DNA from: Mucilaginibacter pallidiroseus
GTDB taxonomy: Bacteria > Bacteroidota > Bacteroidia > Sphingobacteriales > Sphingobacteriaceae
Direction: 5' to 3'
Assembly (NCBI RefSeq): GCF_007846085.1
Contig: NZ_VOEJ01000009.1
Location: forward strand, 1-64,000
Length of the DNA stretch: 64,000 nucleotides
Positions 26,515-36,016 of the stretch are shown here, one piece after another (position 1 is the first letter of the stretch; each line of letters starts with the position of its first letter). The notes beneath the pieces were generated by a model that was not told the origin of the DNA, did not search any database, and saw only the letters and a program-made list of their open reading frames with translations. Position numbers and translations under genes: made by a program.

Positions 26515-26721
26515 ATGACCGAATTTAAACTCGAAGGCGACTATATCCCAATGATACAACTACTTAAGGCCCTTAACCTGGTACAAACCGGTGGCGAGGC
26601 GCAAATTGTGGTTGAAGACGGCGAAGTAAAATACAATGGCCAGGTAGATTACCGCAAAAGGCTGAAGGTGAAACAAGGCGATATTGTTGAGTTTAGAGGT
26701 ACCACCATCAAGGCTATTTAA
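26515..26721 (+). CDS. Small S4-domain RNA-binding protein (YbcJ-like)
   Basis: A protein of 68 residues made almost entirely of an S4 RNA-binding domain: IQLLKALNLVQTGGEAQIVVEDGEVKYNGQ and the basic RKRLKVKQGDIVEF. The start at 26515 (MTEFKLEG) is chosen because upstream in-frame Met codons add a stretch that overlaps the promoter box and is not seen in the family. Family members (YbcJ/YaaA-type) bind RNA, perhaps ribosomal or tRNA. The stop is 1 base before the aroB start, so the two genes are one transcript. Confidence 0.85.
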   Translation: MTEFKLEGDYIPMIQLLKALNLVQTGGEAQIVVEDGEVKYNGQVDYRKRLKVKQGDIVEFRGTTIKAI

Positions 26722-26722
26722 C

Positions 26723-27781
26723 ATGGACACTATTCAGAGCGACGGCTATTCAATTTTCTTTGATGATAGCATAACCGAACTATTTAAATTTGTTGAACAA
26801 GGCAATTACTCAAAGGTGTTTGTACTTACCGACGACAATACCGGCATACATTGTTTGCCCTTACTGCAGCCGCATCTTGTTAAGCTTAACAGTTACGACC
26901 TGATAGAAATTACCGCCGGCGAAGAAAATAAAACCATTGATTTTTGCATTGGCGTTTGGAAAATGCTGATTGATTTTGGTGCCGACCGCAAGGCGCTGAT
27001 GATAAACCTGGGTGGTGGCGTAGTAACCGACTTAGGTGGATTTGTAGCTTCGACCTATAAACGCGGGATCGACTTTGTGCAGGTACCCACTACCCTGCTT
27101 TCGCAGGTTGATGCATCTGTAGGTGGCAAAACAGGTGTTGATGTTGATGGTATAAAAAACATCATAGGTACATTTACCCAGCCAAAAGCCGTTTTTATGA
27201 ACGATGGCTTTTTAAGCACGCTGCCTCAAAGGCAACTACTATCGGGCCTGGCCGAAATGCTGAAACATGGCCTGATATGCGATGCCGATTATTGGGATGA
27301 GTTGAAAGAAAGCGACCTGAGCTTACCTTCTGCCGAATTGATCTATCGTTCGGTTGAGATTAAGAATGCGGTGGTGTTGGAAGACCCGCATGAAAAAAAT
27401 ATCCGCAAGGCCTTAAACTTTGGACATACCGTTGGCCACGCGGTTGAAACCTATTCGCTTTTAAATGATGATGACCCGCTTACACACGGCGAAGCTATTG
27501 CTATTGGCATGATATGCGAAGCGTGGCTATCAAATAAAAAAGCTGGTTTAAGCACCAATCAGTTAGACGAAGTAGCATCTGTAATTACCAGGTTGTATCC
27601 TAAATACGAAGTAAAGGCCGACAGCCAGGCAGAGTTGTTTAAGTTGATGCTGAACGACAAAAAGAATTTTGACGGGCAGATCAACTGCACTTTGTTAAAA
27701 CGTATAGGCGATTTTAGTATCGATAACCTGTGCACGGAAGTGGAGCTTTATGACAGCCTTAACTACTACGCCGGTTTGTAA
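26723..27781 (+). CDS. aroB: 3-dehydroquinate synthase
   Basis: A 352-residue NAD- and zinc-dependent enzyme turning DAHP into 3-dehydroquinate, step two of the shikimate pathway. The signature region LGGGVVTDLGGFVASTYKRG-D and QVPTTLLSQVDASVGGKTGV is intact, as are the metal-ligand motifs (Glu in GLAEMLKHG, His in LNFGHTVGHAVE and LTHGEAIAIG). The start at 26723 follows the upstream stop by one base; the longer frame that overlaps the S4 gene is unlikely. The rest of the aromatic genes are at 31205-36016, about 3.4 kb away. Confidence 0.96.
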   Translation: MDTIQSDGYSIFFDDSITELFKFVEQGNYSKVFVLTDDNTGIHCLPLLQPHLVKLNSYDLIEITAGEENKTIDFCIGVWKMLIDFGADRKALMINLGGGVVTDLGGFVASTYKRGIDFVQVPTTLLSQVDASVGGKTGVDVDGIKNIIGTFTQPKAVFMNDGFLSTLPQRQLLSGLAEMLKHGLICDADYWDELKESDLSLPSAELIYRSVEIKNAVVLEDPHEKNIRKALNFGHTVGHAVETYSLLNDDDPLTHGEAIAIGMICEAWLSNKKAGLSTNQLDEVASVITRLYPKYEVKADSQAELFKLMLNDKKNFDGQINCTLLKRIGDFSIDNLCTEVELYDSLNYYAGL

Positions 27782-30073: not shown

Positions 30074-30937
30074 ATGACCCACTTTGTCTCCAAAATACAA
30101 TTTAAACATTACGAAAAAGGAGAATTTACTGATGAGCAGAAAAGAACGCTACAGGAAACGTTAAATTTAGTAGCCGATTTTCCGTGGGCTGATCAAAATC
30201 ATTTTACATCTATTGAAGAAACCGGCCCATCTGTAACCATTGAGAATAATCAGTCAGAATATATAAAAATAGGCTTGTATTACAGCGGAACGTATGGCGT
30301 TTACTACCGCGATAAATTTGCGCTTGTTTCAAAGTCGTACGCAGCCGATCTAACGGAACTTACAAAAATCATAACGGCCTTTTTTGAGAATCGGTTAAAC
30401 GCCAATGACTTTAAAAAAGATTTTTTTTTGTGGATAAGCAGATATCATTTTGTATCAAAAAGTTTCGTTTATAATGTTAAGCCCTTTAAAACATTGCTTC
30501 TGAGCATCTTTTATATTATATATTTTATAGTACTGCTATGCTTTGTGCGCTCGATAAATTCGGCTGCTAAATTTGAAAAGTCATCAACAATCTTTTTGGT
30601 GCTATTTATTTTATTATGTTATTGCCTATGCAAAATTGCAGCTGTTCACTGTCGATATAAAAAACACTTCATAAAAGTATCAAAAGCTTCCGCAACATTT
30701 ACATATGGCAATGGCGTTAACATTAAAGAGTATAATAAAGCTGATATAGAAAGCATTACAACTTTCAGCCCAAAAAATAACCGCAGTCCAAATATGTTTT
30801 TTGTTTTTATAATCAATTTCGTTAACGGCGATAAAATCAAGTTTAACAATATGATGATCTCTGAAAGTATTGTAACAACAAAATTCCCTAACACAAAATT
30901 TACTATCAGCAAAGGTAGTTCATTTTGGAAGCTCTAA
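30074..30937 (+). CDS. Hypothetical membrane protein
   Basis: A 287-residue protein without a recognisable family. The first ~140 residues are soluble and acidic-basic mixed, then two adjacent membrane helices follow (TLLLSIFYIIYFIVLLCFV and SSTIFLVLFILLCYCLCKIAAV), and the last ~90 residues form a beta-rich cytoplasmic tail (FTYGNGVNIKEY, ESITTFSPKN, INFVNGDKIKFNNMM) resembling PH-like (bPH) domains. The gene is AT-richer than the neighbouring pathway genes. It stands alone before the phe attenuator. Confidence 0.75.
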   Translation: MTHFVSKIQFKHYEKGEFTDEQKRTLQETLNLVADFPWADQNHFTSIEETGPSVTIENNQSEYIKIGLYYSGTYGVYYRDKFALVSKSYAADLTELTKIITAFFENRLNANDFKKDFFLWISRYHFVSKSFVYNVKPFKTLLLSIFYIIYFIVLLCFVRSINSAAKFEKSSTIFLVLFILLCYCLCKIAAVHCRYKKHFIKVSKASATFTYGNGVNIKEYNKADIESITTFSPKNNRSPNMFFVFIINFVNGDKIKFNNMMISESIVTTKFPNTKFTISKGSSFWKL

Positions 30938-31019: not shown

Positions 31020-31049
31020 TTGACAAAATGTTTTTTACTTGTACATTTA
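31020..31049 (+). promoter_or_regulatory. Promoter of the phe/aro operon
   Basis: TTG (31020-31022), 19 bases, TACATTTA (31042-31049); seven of eight positions fit TAnnTTTG. The expected transcription start is near 31055, just upstream of the leader-peptide ATG at 31066. Confidence 0.75.
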
Positions 31050-31065
31050 CGGCATAACAAAAACA

Positions 31066-31131
31066 ATGATCACATTACGCGCATACTTTTATGGTTTCTT
31101 CTTTTACTTTAGCAGTAAGAGCCGGGCCTGA
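31066..31131 (+). CDS. Phenylalanine-rich leader peptide of the pheA attenuator
   Basis: A 21-codon frame (ATG at 31066, TGA at 31129-31131) begins MITLRAYFYGFFFYFSSKS; residues 7-15, YFYGFFFYF, hold eight Phe/Tyr in nine codons. This is the hallmark of a ribosome-sensing leader peptide for aromatic amino acids, as in the E. coli pheL gene. It starts about 11 bases after the predicted transcription start and ends inside the first arm of the antiterminator. It is too short to be called by gene finders. The evidence is composition, position and the RNA structures that follow. Confidence 0.85.
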   Translation: MITLRAYFYGFFFYFSSKSRA

Positions 31132-31190
31132 TATGTGCAAACAGAACATAAAAAATCAGAAAGTCCCGGCCTAAAAGCCGGGACTTTCTT
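31121..31190 (+). promoter_or_regulatory. Transcription attenuator of pheA
   Basis: The terminator is a perfect 13-base stem: AGAAAGTCCCGGC (31158-31170) with GCCGGGACTTTCT (31177-31189), loop CTAAAA, then a T-rich run. GCCGGG at 31121-31126, within the last codons of the leader peptide, is a second copy of the 3' arm core and can pair with CCCGGC (31165-31170) to block the terminator. A ribosome that finishes the peptide covers 31121-31131 and permits termination; a ribosome stalled at Phe/Tyr codons leaves it free and allows readthrough into pheA at 31205. Confidence 0.85.
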
Positions 31191-31204
31191 GCTTTACATA
31201 CATT

Positions 31205-32113
31205 ATGAAAACCGAAAGACCGAGAGTTGCAATACAGGGTATCCGCGCTTCCTTCCACGAGGAAGCCGCATTAAGATACTTTGGCGAAAACATTGAAACC
31301 GTTGAGTGCAATTCATTCAAGCAAACGTTTGAGGCCCTGCAAAACAAGGAGGCTGATTATGTTGTAATGGCTATCGAGAACAGCATAGCCGGCAGCATAT
31401 TGCCAAACTACTCGCTTATGATGAGCTATAGCTTCCCGGTGGTTGGCGAGGTGTATGTACCTATACAATTGCACTTAATGGCTTTGCCGGGTGTACGGTT
31501 TGATGATGTTAAGTATGTAACATCCCACCCTATTGCTATACGCCAGTGCATTGATTTTTTTGACGAGTATCCGCGCTTACAAATTGTTGAAAGCAATGAT
31601 ACAGCCGCATGTGCCAAACGCATTCGCGATGAGCAGCTTACAGATACCGTTGCCATTGCCAACGCCCTGGCGGCACAATTATACGGCCTGGATGTATTAG
31701 AGCGCCGCATCGAATCTAACAAACTAAACTTTACCCGTTTCCTGATCCTTACCACGCATGAAAATGCACGTAAAAAAACAGGTGCAAATAAAGCATCATT
31801 GTGTTTCCAGGTTAATAACGAGGTGGGCGCACTGGCTAAAGTGTTAAATATTTTCGCGCATGAAAACGTGAACATGAGCAAAATCCAAAGCATGCCGGTT
31901 TTAGGTAAGCGTAATGAGTATAATTTTTACGTGGACATTGAGTGGGGAGAAACGCGCCAGTTTGATAACGCCATAAAACAGATCCTTAAATACACCCATA
32001 ACTTTAACATACTGGGCGAGTATTTAAAATACGAGGAAGACACCCAGGCGCCAAAACCCGCCCCGAGCCCCGAGAGCACAAAACGCTACATTACGGTAAG
32101 GAAGATAGAATAG
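31205..32113 (+). CDS. pheA: Prephenate dehydratase
   Basis: A 302-residue monofunctional enzyme converting prephenate to phenylpyruvate, the phenylalanine branch. The N-terminal catalytic domain shows IQGIRASFHEEAALRYFGE, YVVMAIENSIAGSILPNY and the catalytic TRF in LNFTRFLIL; the C-terminal ACT domain, about 195-280, includes ASLCFQVNNEVGALAKVLNIFA and the phenylalanine-binding region NMSKIQSMPV. The protein has no chorismate mutase part; that activity is in the next gene. Expression is governed by the upstream attenuator and activity probably by Phe binding to the ACT domain. Confidence 0.95.
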   Translation: MKTERPRVAIQGIRASFHEEAALRYFGENIETVECNSFKQTFEALQNKEADYVVMAIENSIAGSILPNYSLMMSYSFPVVGEVYVPIQLHLMALPGVRFDDVKYVTSHPIAIRQCIDFFDEYPRLQIVESNDTAACAKRIRDEQLTDTVAIANALAAQLYGLDVLERRIESNKLNFTRFLILTTHENARKKTGANKASLCFQVNNEVGALAKVLNIFAHENVNMSKIQSMPVLGKRNEYNFYVDIEWGETRQFDNAIKQILKYTHNFNILGEYLKYEEDTQAPKPAPSPESTKRYITVRKIE

Positions 32114-32120
32114 TATTTGG

Positions 32121-32238
32121 AGTCGAAAAGTTCCGATGTCGGTAAGTCCGAAAGATTAAAGGAAATAAAATCAGATAATTAACAAAAAATAAACATAACA
32201 TACTACCGGACTTAACGACTTATCGTACTTCCGGACTA
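32121..32238. repeat. Imperfect inverted repeat between pheA and aroF
   Basis: The segment 32121-32154 and the reverse complement of 32201-32238 share the unit AGTCCG...AAGTC; the core GTCGGTAAGTCCG versus GTCGTTAAGTCCG matches at 12 of 13 bases. The two arms are separated by an AT-rich spacer of about 46 bases. It looks like an intergenic repeat element of the type dispersed in genomes of this family. Confidence 0.6.
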
Positions 32239-32249
32239 ATAAAATCGAT

Positions 32250-33377
32250 ATGAAACACAATTTAAACATACAGCCGCTTAACACCTGGATCAATCAGGCA
32301 GGCAAACAACCTTTGGTGATATCTGGCCCGTGCAGCGCCGAAACTGAAGAACAATTGGTAGCAACAGCACACCTACTTGCCCAAACAGGTAAAATAAGCG
32401 CCCTACGCGCAGGTATCTGGAAACCACGTACCCGCCCGGGCGAGTTTGAAGGTATTGGCAGCATTGGTTTGGAATGGTTAAAACGCGCTAAAGCAGAAAC
32501 AGGCTTGCCTACAGCTGTTGAAGTAGCTACCGCAAAACACGTTGAAGAAGCTTTGGCTGCAGGTGTAGATATCCTTTGGGTAGGTGCACGCTCAACAGCC
32601 AACCCATTCACCGTGCAGGAAATTGCCGATGCTTTACGTGGTGTTGATGTACCTGTAATGGTTAAAAACCCTGTAAACCCCGATCTATCATTATGGGTGG
32701 GTGCATTGGAGCGTATCAACAACGCTGGTATTACCAAATTAGCGGCCATACACCGCGGCTTTTCATCATACGAGAAATCAGCTTTCCGTAACGAACCGAT
32801 GTGGGATGTAGCCATCGCGTTAAAAACCCTTGTACCTGACCTGCCTATCATTAACGACCCAAGCCACATTACCGGCGCACGTGATTTAATTGCTTACGTA
32901 TCACAAAAAGCATTGGATTTGGACATGCAAGGTTTAATGATCGAGTCGCACATCGACCCTTCAGTAGCATGGACGGATGCCAAACAACAAGTTACCCCTG
33001 CTGCCCTTTCAGATATTATTGATCACCTTGCATTACGTAAGCCCGAAGTGCGCAACACCGAGGTTAACGATAAACTGCATGAATTACGCAACCAGATAGA
33101 TAAGATTGATGATTTGCTGATCCAGAAAATTGCTGAGCGTATGCAAATTGTTGAGAAGATTGGTAACTACAAAAAAGATAACAACATTACTATTTTACAG
33201 GTTAACCGTTGGGATGAGATTCTGCAAAAACGTGTTGGCTATGGTAAAGCTTTAAAACTTAGCGGCGAATTCACCGAAAAACTATTAGAGTTATTGCATA
33301 GTGAGTCTATCCGTAAGCAAACCGAGATCATGAACGACGAAGCCGGGCAAGCAAAAGAAAAGCTTACCCACGCATAA
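32250..33377 (+). CDS. Bifunctional DAHP synthase / chorismate mutase
   Basis: A 375-residue fusion. Residues about 1-255 form a DAHP synthase of the KDO8P-synthase-like class: VISGPCSAETEEQLV, RAGIWKPRTRPGEFEGIG, AIHRGFSSY, NDPSHITGARDL and GLMIESHIDPSVAWTDAKQQ. It makes the first shikimate-pathway compound from PEP and erythrose-4-phosphate. Residues about 268-355 form a type II chorismate mutase (LHELRNQIDKIDDLLIQKIAERMQIVEKIGNYKKDN), so feedback sensing by prephenate may act across the fusion, as known for related enzymes. It follows pheA by 136 bases containing a repeat element. Confidence 0.94.
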   Translation: MKHNLNIQPLNTWINQAGKQPLVISGPCSAETEEQLVATAHLLAQTGKISALRAGIWKPRTRPGEFEGIGSIGLEWLKRAKAETGLPTAVEVATAKHVEEALAAGVDILWVGARSTANPFTVQEIADALRGVDVPVMVKNPVNPDLSLWVGALERINNAGITKLAAIHRGFSSYEKSAFRNEPMWDVAIALKTLVPDLPIINDPSHITGARDLIAYVSQKALDLDMQGLMIESHIDPSVAWTDAKQQVTPAALSDIIDHLALRKPEVRNTEVNDKLHELRNQIDKIDDLLIQKIAERMQIVEKIGNYKKDNNITILQVNRWDEILQKRVGYGKALKLSGEFTEKLLELLHSESIRKQTEIMNDEAGQAKEKLTHA

Positions 33378-33427: not shown

Positions 33428-33435
33428 TAGCTTTG
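33428..33435 (+). promoter_or_regulatory. Possible -7 box upstream of aroA
   Basis: TAGCTTTG fits TAnnTTTG; it lies 42 bases before the aroA ATG at 33478. The nearest TTG (33401) is 24 bases away, longer than usual, so the promoter is only a possibility and aroA may also be read from upstream. Confidence 0.45.
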
Positions 33436-33477
33436 CCATGCAGCCGGGATATTAGTACCCTGTTACAAAATCTATTA

Positions 33478-34776
33478 ATGAAACATAACATTACACTTAC
33501 CAAGCAAGGCAAATCGGCAAACGGCACCATACAACTTACCGGTTCAAAAAGCGAGTGTAACCGTGCCCTTCTTATTGAGGCCCTTAGCGACGGTAAAGTA
33601 AAGGTTGAGAATATATCTGACGCTGCCGACACTGTTACGTTGGCGGGAATACTAAAGCCAGAGATTAATGACCAAAGATCAGAGATTAGTTCTGATAGGA
33701 GCCTCACCTCTAATCTCCAATCTCAAACCTCTGAAGTAAACATTGGCCCGGCTGGTACGGCAATGCGCTTTTTAACAGCTTACTATGCCATAGGCAACCA
33801 AGGAGTTGTGCTTACCGGGAGCGAGCGCATGAAACAAAGGCCCATTGGTATTTTAGTTGATGCCTTACGCACCCTCGGTGCGGAAATATCTTATGAGGAA
33901 AAAGACGGCTACCCCCCTATCAGGCTGAGCGGAAATTTCACTCAAAAAACGGATAAGATTAGCATCAAAGGGAACATAAGCAGCCAGTATATCACTGCAT
34001 TACTGCTTATAGCACCTAAATTGCCGCAAGGACTTGAAGTACATATAGAAGGCGACCTTACATCGCGCCCGTATGTAGAAATGACATTGGCCATGCTTAA
34101 GCAAGCGGGCATACAGTACAATTGGAATGATAATGTCATAGCCATTGCACATCAGCCTTATCAGGAAACTACGTTACTTGTAGAACCCGATTGGAGCGCT
34201 GCAAGTTATTGGTATTCCATAGCGGCATTAAGCGACGAGGCGGAATTATTTTTACCCGGCCTAACATCATACAGTCTTCAGGGCGATAGCGTGATAACCG
34301 AAATTATGGCCAGCTTTGGCATTACATCGGTATTTAAGGATGGTGGCGTACATCTTAAAAAAGAAACGAAGCCGCTGCTACGTACTGAGTTTGATATGAT
34401 TAAATGTCCGGATTTGGCGCAAACTGTAATTGTTATTTGTGCAGCGCTTGGCCACGAGGCTACCTTTACCGGTCTGGAAACATTGAAGATCAAGGAAACC
34501 GACCGCGTGCTGGCATTACAAACCGAGCTGGCGAAAATGGGCGTGAAGTTGATAGAAGAAAACGAAGTTTATAGGCTTGATTGCAGCGGCCGTTTTATAC
34601 CGCAGCAAATGTTTGTAGGCACGTACGATGATCACCGCATGGCCATGGCTTTTGCACCGTTGGCTATCATCATCCCCGAGTTGGAGATTGAAGATGCCGA
34701 TGTTGTAGAAAAATCATACCCTGCATTTTGGACAGACCTTGAAAAAGTGGGATTCTTTTCAAAGGCGAAAGTGTAA
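33478..34776 (+). CDS. aroA: 3-phosphoshikimate 1-carboxyvinyltransferase (EPSP synthase)
   Basis: A 432-residue enzyme joining shikimate-3-phosphate and PEP. The start at 33478 (MKHNITLTKQ) is chosen because the longer frame crosses the promoter box. Family marks are LTGSKSECNRALLIEAL, GPAGTAMRFLTAYYA, SSQYITALLLIAPKL, the LEVDWSAASYWYS-like region VEPDWSAASYWYSI, IKETDRVLALQTELAKMG and TYDDHRMAMAFAPLA. Between residues about 60 and 87 there is an unusual insertion, encoded by an imperfect palindrome (33659-33733), just before the GPAGTAMR loop. The rest of the active site is intact, so the enzyme should work. Confidence 0.94.
   Translation: MKHNITLTKQGKSANGTIQLTGSKSECNRALLIEALSDGKVKVENISDAADTVTLAGILKPEINDQRSEISSDRSLTSNLQSQTSEVNIGPAGTAMRFLTAYYAIGNQGVVLTGSERMKQRPIGILVDALRTLGAEISYEEKDGYPPIRLSGNFTQKTDKISIKGNISSQYITALLLIAPKLPQGLEVHIEGDLTSRPYVEMTLAMLKQAGIQYNWNDNVIAIAHQPYQETTLLVEPDWSAASYWYSIAALSDEAELFLPGLTSYSLQGDSVITEIMASFGITSVFKDGGVHLKKETKPLLRTEFDMIKCPDLAQTVIVICAALGHEATFTGLETLKIKETDRVLALQTELAKMGVKLIEENEVYRLDCSGRFIPQQMFVGTYDDHRMAMAFAPLAIIIPELEIEDADVVEKSYPAFWTDLEKVGFFSKAKV
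33659..33733. repeat. Palindromic repeat element inserted in the aroA reading frame
   Basis: CAGAGATTA occurs at 33659-33667 and 33680-33688; GAGATTAG (33682-33689) is inverted as CTAATCTC (33710-33717); CAGAG (33659-33663) is inverted as CTCTG (33729-33733). About 75 bases (25 codons) thus form an imperfect hairpin of low-complexity GA/TC sequence. The inserted peptide (NDQRSEISSDRSL-type, hydrophilic) lies in a surface loop position and keeps the frame. Confidence 0.7.
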
Positions 34777-34817
34777 TTAAGGTTAAGGTTAAAAGTAGAA
34801 AGCTCTAAAACCAACGC

Positions 34818-34841
34818 GTCATTGCGAGGTACGAGGCAATC
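34818..34841. repeat. Dispersed intergenic repeat (GTCATTGCGAGG type)
   Basis: GTCATTGCGAGG-TACGAGGCAATC contains inverted ends ATTGC (34821-34825) and GCAAT (34836-34840); GCAATCGCAAGCGACTGG follows at 34851. From memory, near-identical units recur between genes in Mucilaginibacter-type genomes. It lies between aroA and aroC. Confidence 0.55.
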
Positions 34842-34924
34842 TTAAACTTTGCAATCGCAAGCGACTGGTAGAAATTTAGTAAAAAACAGTGTAATCAGCA
34901 CCTAATCAGTGTAATCAAATCTAT

Positions 34925-36016
34925 ATGGCAGGCAACTCATTCGGGCAACTATTCAGGATAACAACATTTGGCGAATCGCATGGCGAAGCTATCGGTGTAA
35001 TTATAGACGGTTGCCCTGCAGGCTTACCTGTCGACCTTGATTACATTCAGGGCGAGTTGGATAAGCGTAAACCCGGACAGTCGAAGATAACAACACAGCG
35101 TAAAGAGGCCGACACCGTAAAAATACTTTCGGGCACGTTCGAAGGAAAAACAACGGGCACTCCCATCGCCATGGTGATACCTAATGAAGATCAGCGCTCA
35201 AAAGACTATGGTCATAACGTAGATGTGTTTCGCCCATCGCACGCCGATTATACCTATCAAACTAAATATGGCATCCGCGACCACCGCGGTGGCGGCCGCT
35301 CTTCGGCCCGTGAAACTGCCGCGCGCGTAGCTGCAGGTGCTTTGGCTAAATTGCTGCTAAAAACACAAGGCATTGAGATTATTGCCCATGTAAGCAGCGT
35401 TGGTAAGATTGAGGCACCCAATGTATCCATCAACAATGCAGACGAGTTTATTGCCGAACGCGAAAAAAACATCGTGCGTTGTGCCGACCCGGCTACAGCT
35501 ACCGAGATGATTGATTTTATTGACAGCGTACGCAAAAACGGCGATACTGTTGGCGGTAAAGTTAGCTGCTACGTAAAAAACTGCCCCGTTGGCCTTGGCG
35601 AACCAGTTTTTGACAAGCTACACGCCGATTTGGGCAAGGCAATGCTCAGCATAAATGCTGTACATGGTTTTGAATTTGGCTCGGGCTTTAGCGGCAGTGG
35701 AATGCTCGGCTCGGAACATAATGATGTATTCATAAAAAATGCCGACGGTTCGGTAACTACACGTACCAATTACTCTGGCGGTATACAGGGCGGCATCAGC
35801 AATGGTATGCCTATCGAATTTAAGGTGGCATTTAAACCCGTAGCCACCATTATGCATAATCAACAGACGATAGACAGCCAGGGTAACGAAGCGGAAATTT
35901 CTGGCAAGGGCCGCCACGACCCTTGTGTTGTACCACGTGCAGTACCTATTGTTGAAGCAATGGCGGCCCTGGTATTGGCCGACCATTGGTTGCGCAACCG
36001 CAATGCTAAATTGTAG
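34925..36016 (+). CDS. aroC: Chorismate synthase
   Basis: A 363-residue FMN-dependent enzyme that removes phosphate from EPSP to form chorismate. All three signature stretches are present: [18 protein letters not shown] at the N-terminus, [21 protein letters not shown] in the middle and [20 protein letters not shown] at the C-terminus. It is the last aromatic gene of the cluster, 148 bases after aroA, with a repeat between, so it could be cotranscribed or have its own start. Confidence 0.97.

Follow-up and report, generated by a model that had tools for sequence, protein, structure and literature searches.

The trpL and pheL leaders work by the same mechanism as is proposed below for a pheA leader, the locus treated here. 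The E. coli pheL leader peptide is rich in Phe and free of Tyr, and E. coli thrL is the Thr/Ile leader of thrA. According to excerpts of a 2010 account, leader-peptide systems had at that time been shown, to its authors' knowledge, only in Proteobacteria and Actinobacteria (PMC2965389); a study of attenuation across bacteria, Lopatovskaya 2010, is cited in an excerpt of PMC4833913. For the Bacteroidetes, excerpted sources describe Bacteroid-trp (RF01692) as a catalogued cis-regulatory RNA motif (PMC2864571), leader-like short frames in the 5' UTRs of B. thetaiotaomicron (PMC7366714), and, from a Flavobacterium transcriptome, hints of leader-peptide attenuation at amino-acid operons together with a structured 5' element that precedes pheA in Flavobacterium psychrophilum, is kept in other Flavobacteriaceae and has no Rfam match (PMC9723704). 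A preliminary description of the present locus called such control less often described in Bacteroidota, a fair wording as far as these excerpts go, with the Flavobacterium pheA element (PMC9723704) and Bacteroid-trp (PMC2864571) already in print. Among the matches listed in the open-licence literature, no treatment of a Sphingobacteriaceae pheA element was found.

The window, the whole 64,000-nucleotide stretch of Mucilaginibacter pallidiroseus DNA that was analysed, holds in front of pheA what is very probably a ribosome-mediated transcription attenuator of the trp/phe type (Table 1). The promoter, 21-codon leader, 13-bp terminator and GCCGGG copy of the terminator arm named in the preliminary description were all confirmed in place. 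Codons 7-15 of the leader read Y F Y G F F F Y F, aromatic in eight of nine positions. The terminator (AGAAAGTCCCGGC-CTAAAA-GCCGGGACTTTCT, 31158-31189) is a perfect 13-bp stem with a 6-nt loop and ends 15 nt before the pheA start (31205); the GCCGGG in the leader (31121-31126) is complementary to CCCGGC in its 5' arm (31165-31170), providing an antiterminator pairing of region 2 with region 3. Folding of the 150-nt leader RNA yields -42.5 kcal/mol versus a shuffled mean of -24.2 (z -5.3; 0 of 200 shuffles equal). The U-tract after the window terminator (TTTCTTGCTTT) is interrupted; in many aligned relatives outside Mucilaginibacter, eight or nine T follow the terminator arm directly. The element TTG-N19-TACATTTA is presumably of the Bacteroidota promoter type, and 85 of 90 Mucilaginibacter sequences (2.0% in shuffles) and 37 of 40 from other Sphingobacteriaceae (3.3% in shuffles) have the pattern TTG-N17-22-TAnnTT[TG][GA] no more than 70 nt 5' of the leader start.

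Table 1. Features of the pheA leader and of the genes that follow it, with positions in the window.
Feature	Position	Strand	Basis or detail
Putative promoter TTG-N19-TACATTTA	31020..31049	+	TTG 31020-31022, 19 nt, TACATTTA 31042-31049
Leader frame MITLRAYFYGFFFYFSSKSRA*	31066..31131	+	21 codons; ATG 31066-31068, TGA 31129-31131
Region 1, outer 5' arm GCGCATA	31079..31085	+	pairs with 31132-31138; predicted fold
Region 1, inner 5' arm CTTTTACT, within Phe-Tyr codons	31101..31108	+	pairs with 31114-31121
Inner 3' arm AGTAAGAG of the 1:2 hairpin	31114..31121	+	alignment of relatives
Region 2 core GCCGGG	31121..31126	+	copy of terminator 3' arm, in last leader codons
Region 2 extension	31128..31138	+	31132-31138 upstream (outer 1:2), or 31128-31136 downstream (predicted)
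Region 3, terminator 5' arm AGAAAGTCCCGGC	31158..31170	+	read in sequence; 3:4 covariation
Region 4, terminator 3' arm GCCGGGACTTTCT, then TGCTTT	31177..31189	+	read in sequence
pheA, prephenate dehydratase	31205..32113	+	PRK11898 205.1 bits versus cut-off 219; PF00800 above cut-off
DAHP synthase-chorismate mutase fusion	32250..33377	+	both domains matched; scores under curated cut-offs
aroA, EPSP synthase	33433..34776	+	longest frame, start provisional; TIGR01356 306.5 bits, above cut-off
aroC, chorismate synthase	34925..36016	+	NCBIfam match above cut-off

An aromatic leader precedes pheA in 90 of 93 Mucilaginibacter upstream sequences, in all 40 from 19 other Sphingobacteriaceae genera, and in 20 of 33 prephenate dehydratase upstreams from 21 other families of the class, where class means the assignment used in the genome search. 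The positives of this last set fall in 13 families, and in its other 13 upstreams no aromatic leader was found by the criterion used. Dinucleotide shuffles pass the same test at rates of 0.9%, 1.9% and 1.7%, respectively, and zero shuffles of the relatives' upstream regions contain at least eight aromatic residues in nine codons. The class set derives from a prephenate dehydratase match in 39 of 139 genomes, 34 of them outside the family; 33 were taken, and one with a partial match (G325) was left out. Among its 20 leaders is one (L178) for which the search used found no terminator. Two of the three Mucilaginibacter misses are contigs that start inside the leader (L041, L055), and the third (L008) is a real absence. 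This last sequence belongs to Mucilaginibacter aurantiaciroseus, whose pheA has neither leader nor terminator in front of it; this one species seems to have lost them. Duplicate removal took out 17 loci; L080 and L100 remain as one place and the 90 leaders comprise 82 distinct sequences, so the counts are of sequences, not of independent events.

Within the family sets, and without L148, which has no hairpin motif, the leader start is in frame with the hairpin motif in 129 of 129 sequences, at distances of 26, 29, 32, 35 or 38 nt, whose differences are all multiples of three. This constancy of frame over five spacings argues that the leader is probably translated. The preliminary description had proposed looking through other Sphingobacteriaceae for the leader and its two hairpins; upstream regions, alignment and covariance model all find them conserved there, so that the lack of conservation it named as a refutation was not observed. 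That the stem is an ordinary terminator of the upstream gene (30074-30937), lying beside an aromatic frame that arose by chance in AT-rich DNA, is accordingly hardly credible: a simple scan did list the window stem as a terminator on the minus strand only, yet leader, frame, promoter and alternative pairings are conserved across the family and beyond, which contradicts that account.

The alternative pairings were followed in an RNA alignment of 60 sequences, made up of 20 of the 93 from Mucilaginibacter and all 40 from the other genera. The 1:2 and 3:4 pairs are formed in 95.7% of cells (slid controls, 32-51%), with both-sided changes in 10 of 24 pairs, a result that 0 of 500 shuffles equalled. 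The inner helix of the 1:2 hairpin, CTTTTACT/AGTAAGAG, joins Phe-Tyr codons to Ser-Lys-Ser codons and has both-sided changes in three of its eight pairs; the outer helix, GCATA/TATGC, shows G-C, A-U and G-U alternatives among relatives. RNAalifold, run unaided, recovered the inner 1:2 helix and the terminator; the outer 1:2 helix was not recovered in that run and is seen only in the structure supplied. In the 2:3 antiterminator core, 93.9% of cells are paired (slid controls, 18-59%), mostly with one-sided changes. Double changes amount to five cells in three pairs, three pairs being reached by 24 of 500 shuffles, and four of six slid 2:3 versions have more such cells (6-9), so that covariation as such is unsupported for the 2:3 pairing. 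In 10 of 130 leaders the stop codon comes before region 2 begins. Region 2 is kept in full in seven of these ten (L042, L044, L057, both sequences of genus g30 and both of g33), and so is preserved there as RNA rather than as peptide, and in part in the other three (L143 and two of g41).

The 1:2 hairpin and an extension of the antiterminator are parts beyond those in the preliminary description. In the extension, 31128-31136 are predicted to pair with 31146-31150 and 31156-31159. A helix inside the 2:3 spacer is predicted by a mean spacer z of -1.54 over 51 sequences, with z at or below -1 in 29 of the 40 sequences from other genera and in the window, where the forced 2:3 fold reaches -15.5 kcal/mol versus a spacer-shuffle mean of -11.9 (z -1.78). 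In ten other Mucilaginibacter the extension is unsupported (spacer z -0.8 to +0.7). Where it forms, the TATGC strand can, in these predicted structures, pair either upstream in the 1:2 hairpin or downstream in the 2:3 form, which would constitute a second mutually exclusive choice.

In the mechanism proposed, transcription would start near 31055, and a ribosome would translate the 21-codon leader close behind RNA polymerase. Given an ample supply of charged tRNA(Phe) and tRNA(Tyr), the ribosome would reach the stop codon and cover region 2, leaving region 3 to pair with region 4 and ending transcription before pheA. A shortage of charged aromatic tRNA would stall the ribosome within codons 7-15, which themselves build the 1:2 hairpin, and that hairpin would be broken; region 2, now free, would pair with region 3 ahead of region 4 synthesis, no terminator would form, and pheA, the DAHP synthase-chorismate mutase gene, aroA and aroC would be transcribed. 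An untranslated leader would form both 1:2 and 3:4, and transcription would stop. Termination in the cell and a response to Phe and Tyr, with Trp in other genera, would be the expected behavior of such an element. The ribosome-mediated reading given in the preliminary description is thus supported by the conserved leader, its frame and the mutually exclusive pairings.

The predicted energetics bear on how the switch would operate. In all five stalled-ribosome folds (codons 7 to 15) with region 4 included, the minimum-energy structure is the terminator, and in the window folds the 2:3 form prevails only on an RNA that stops short of region 4. Its energy for a ribosome at codon 9, 13 or 15 is -17.9, -17.6 or -10.1 kcal/mol, respectively, versus -24.4 for the terminator. 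The terminator is thus the stabler form, and switching must be kinetic; a stall at codon 15 would, by these folds, be the least helpful to it. In predicted folds the antiterminator forms before region 4 is made, and its complementarity to region 3 is kept in relatives. The window copy departs from those of its congeners in region 2, which reads GCCGGGCCT in the window versus GCCGGGACT in 88 of 90 Mucilaginibacter leaders, GCCGGG being followed by CCT instead of ACT. This replacement leaves a 2:3 core of 6 bp, not 9, and hence a weaker pairing than in relatives; a few spacer pairs are gained beside it. With the short core and the broken U-tract, control in the window may be leaky, and this strain may regulate the genes less strongly than its relatives do.

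A stem that ends so close to pheA might also act by blocking ribosome loading rather than by ending transcription. No more than 35 nt separate the stem end from the PheA match in 87 of 90 Mucilaginibacter leaders and 29 of 36 others (distances measured to the match start, possibly a few codons inside the gene), near enough to touch an initiating ribosome. The distance is larger in 10 of 126 sequences, L080 and L100 being one place, and reaches about 100 nt, and the aligned sequences carry a T-rich tract after the stem that would be superfluous for occlusion. Occlusion is therefore very unlikely, and transcription attenuation is the reading retained below.

The genes under this proposed control were named in a row by NCBIfam as pheA, DAHP synthase-chorismate mutase, aroA and aroC, the set given in the preliminary description, and PheA matches named Mucilaginibacter records at up to 89%. 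The same order is found in eight of eight Sphingobacteriaceae genomes examined, no two of one genus and one a further Mucilaginibacter, and the four genes are likely carried on one transcript, to judge from their order and common strand. Outside the family, seven genomes differ in what follows pheA. An aminotransferase frame, a TyrA-type frame and DAHP synthase-chorismate mutase follow it in families f36, f53 (twice) and f15, an aminotransferase frame only in f33, DAHP synthase-chorismate mutase and proC in f43, and DAHP synthase-chorismate mutase at the contig end in f6. Checks against NCBIfam and Pfam gave matches for all five frames submitted, two aminotransferase frames and three TyrA frames of the four, the TyrA frames above the curated cut-off of PRK08507; the remaining frames were named by eye. 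Two gaps within the row of the window are long, 136 nt between pheA and the fusion gene (32114-32249), in which CCGGACT stretches are repeated, and 148 nt between aroA and aroC (34777-34924). A further gene of the pathway, aroB (26684-27781), lies about 3.4 kb 5' of pheA on the same strand, apart from the pheA row.

A covariance model built from the alignment places the element in 54 of 61 family genomes, directly before PheA in 53 of the 54 genomes that bear PheA (PheA coordinates are lacking for G062), and the seven genomes without the element are all among those without a PheA match. The model was trained on many of the same sequences, and these figures therefore speak to position and co-loss, not to independent discovery. 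Weak class-wide matches (129 of 247 genomes, E<=0.01) were excluded from the presence counts, the model being too weak at that range. Of eleven places inspected (42-56 bits), three are leaders of pheA (L242-L244) and three are leaders of thrA (L235-L237), while the other five (L238-L241, L245) by eye resemble plain terminators. A search for GTCCCGGC-stem elements elsewhere in the genome was set aside, having given one other exact-pattern stem, without an adjoining aromatic leader by eye (L245).

The preliminary description named the element a phenylalanine attenuator; the attenuator stands, and the name is too narrow, as the leaders mix Phe with Tyr and in places Trp. Both Phe and Tyr are present in every passing leader (90, 40 and 20 in the three sets). 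Trp occurs in 4 of 90 Mucilaginibacter leaders, 20 of 40 from the other genera and 3 of 20 from the class, and in at least one sequence of 11 of the 19 other genera. Codons that lie between the helix arms, and so are free of pairing, are aromatic in 271 of 362 cases over the 90 Mucilaginibacter leaders (152 Tyr, 115 Phe, 4 Trp), the other 91 being Gly, and in 85 of 128 cases over 36 other leaders (53 Phe, 16 Tyr, 16 Trp), four sequences having been excluded. Such a make-up speaks for selection on aromatic codons as such. The helix arms contain some of the Tyr codons, which pairing could be keeping in place, so that mixed sensing is a likely reading, and RNA pairing alone can account for some of the Tyr and Phe codons.

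The narrower account, that Phe alone is sensed and that the Tyr (and Trp) codons are due to RNA helices or codon drift, draws on this point: Tyr codons 7 and 14 fall within conserved helix arms (GCATA and CTTTTACT), TTT and TAT are one base apart, and the free codons of other genera favor Phe over Tyr by 53 to 16. It is nevertheless rather unlikely, since Tyr is as common as Phe outside the arms in Mucilaginibacter, Trp takes up one-eighth of the free codons in other genera, and DAHP synthase, aroA and aroC feed all three aromatic amino acids. Mixed sensing of Phe and Tyr, as suggested in the preliminary description and extendable to Trp in other genera, is plausible. Tentatively, the element may be an old, class-wide pheA attenuator that acts as a pan-aromatic sensor, reading tRNA charging for Phe, Tyr and, in those 11 other genera, Trp, with codons tuned by lineage, and setting entry into the shikimate pathway. 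A leader that mixes three aromatic amino acids would, if this is true, be a clean system for learning how one ribosome-read switch weighs several signals.

Two further explanations of the codon mix were rejected. A tie between Trp codons and gene content is unsupported, Mucilaginibacter having the same genes with Trp in so few leaders, and so is a missing tyrA as the cause of the Tyr codons, one PF02153 match being present in the genome (26.3 bits at a cut-off of 26.5). The matched frame, of 418 aa, scores 24.0 bits alone, and its best NCBIfam matches are prephenate dehydrogenases, all under their cut-offs (91.6 bits at best). This frame (L186, C15:96346-96585, minus strand) is the sole candidate for a prephenate dehydrogenase, has no linkage to the pheA genes, and by eye resembles the yeast TYR1 type. 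The genome also has a frame for a biopterin-dependent hydroxylase elsewhere.

Other leaders of similar design are found in the same genome. The Trp leader MMNKLNNNWWWLNENS stands before trpD (L187, C1:570180-570297, minus strand) and matches Bacteroid-trp at 44.5 bits against a gathering score of 49. The Thr/Ile leader MTFNNTTIITIITTGINPGGR, with a terminator-like hairpin, lies upstream of the match at 355971-358163 on C11 (L246, minus strand); the gene after it encodes a bifunctional aspartate kinase/homoserine dehydrogenase (thrA), and similar thrA leaders occur in three genomes of genus g35. With Phe/Tyr, Trp and Thr/Ile leaders in one genome, classical attenuation looks like a standing theme here, and these leaders indicate that leader-peptide attenuation is an established mode of regulation in a phylum with few descriptions of it. 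The pheA element itself adds an RNA family to which the Rfam searches gave no match: scores at the element stay below the gathering threshold of every Rfam family, both in the window and in 10 relatives.

Comparison with the known systems sets the element apart from each of them. The genes downstream of the E. coli pheL attenuator differ from the row found here. Enterobacterial pheL-pheA, catalogued as Phe_leader (RF01859), shares with the present locus an aromatic leader peptide, alternative hairpins and a terminator before pheA. Membership in that family is rejected at 21.2 bits versus a gathering score of 55, the match being one of 26 weak Rfam matches, several of them to unrelated families, and the likeness is probably one of function, reached by convergence. 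The Thr/Ile leader of thrA shares the use of codons for more than one amino acid and differs in the amino acids and the genes. Bacteroid-trp concerns another gene and another amino acid, and RF01692 gave no match at the pheA leader in the window scan, nor is it listed for the region when matches are taken up to E 5. The Flavobacterium element involves the same gene in the same phylum and is likened here by its description in the excerpted source, which is without sequence, codons or hairpins (PMC9723704). The kind of mechanism is therefore known, and the Sphingobacteriaceae pheA element is new to it, joining a structured 5' element of Flavobacterium pheA that is already in print.
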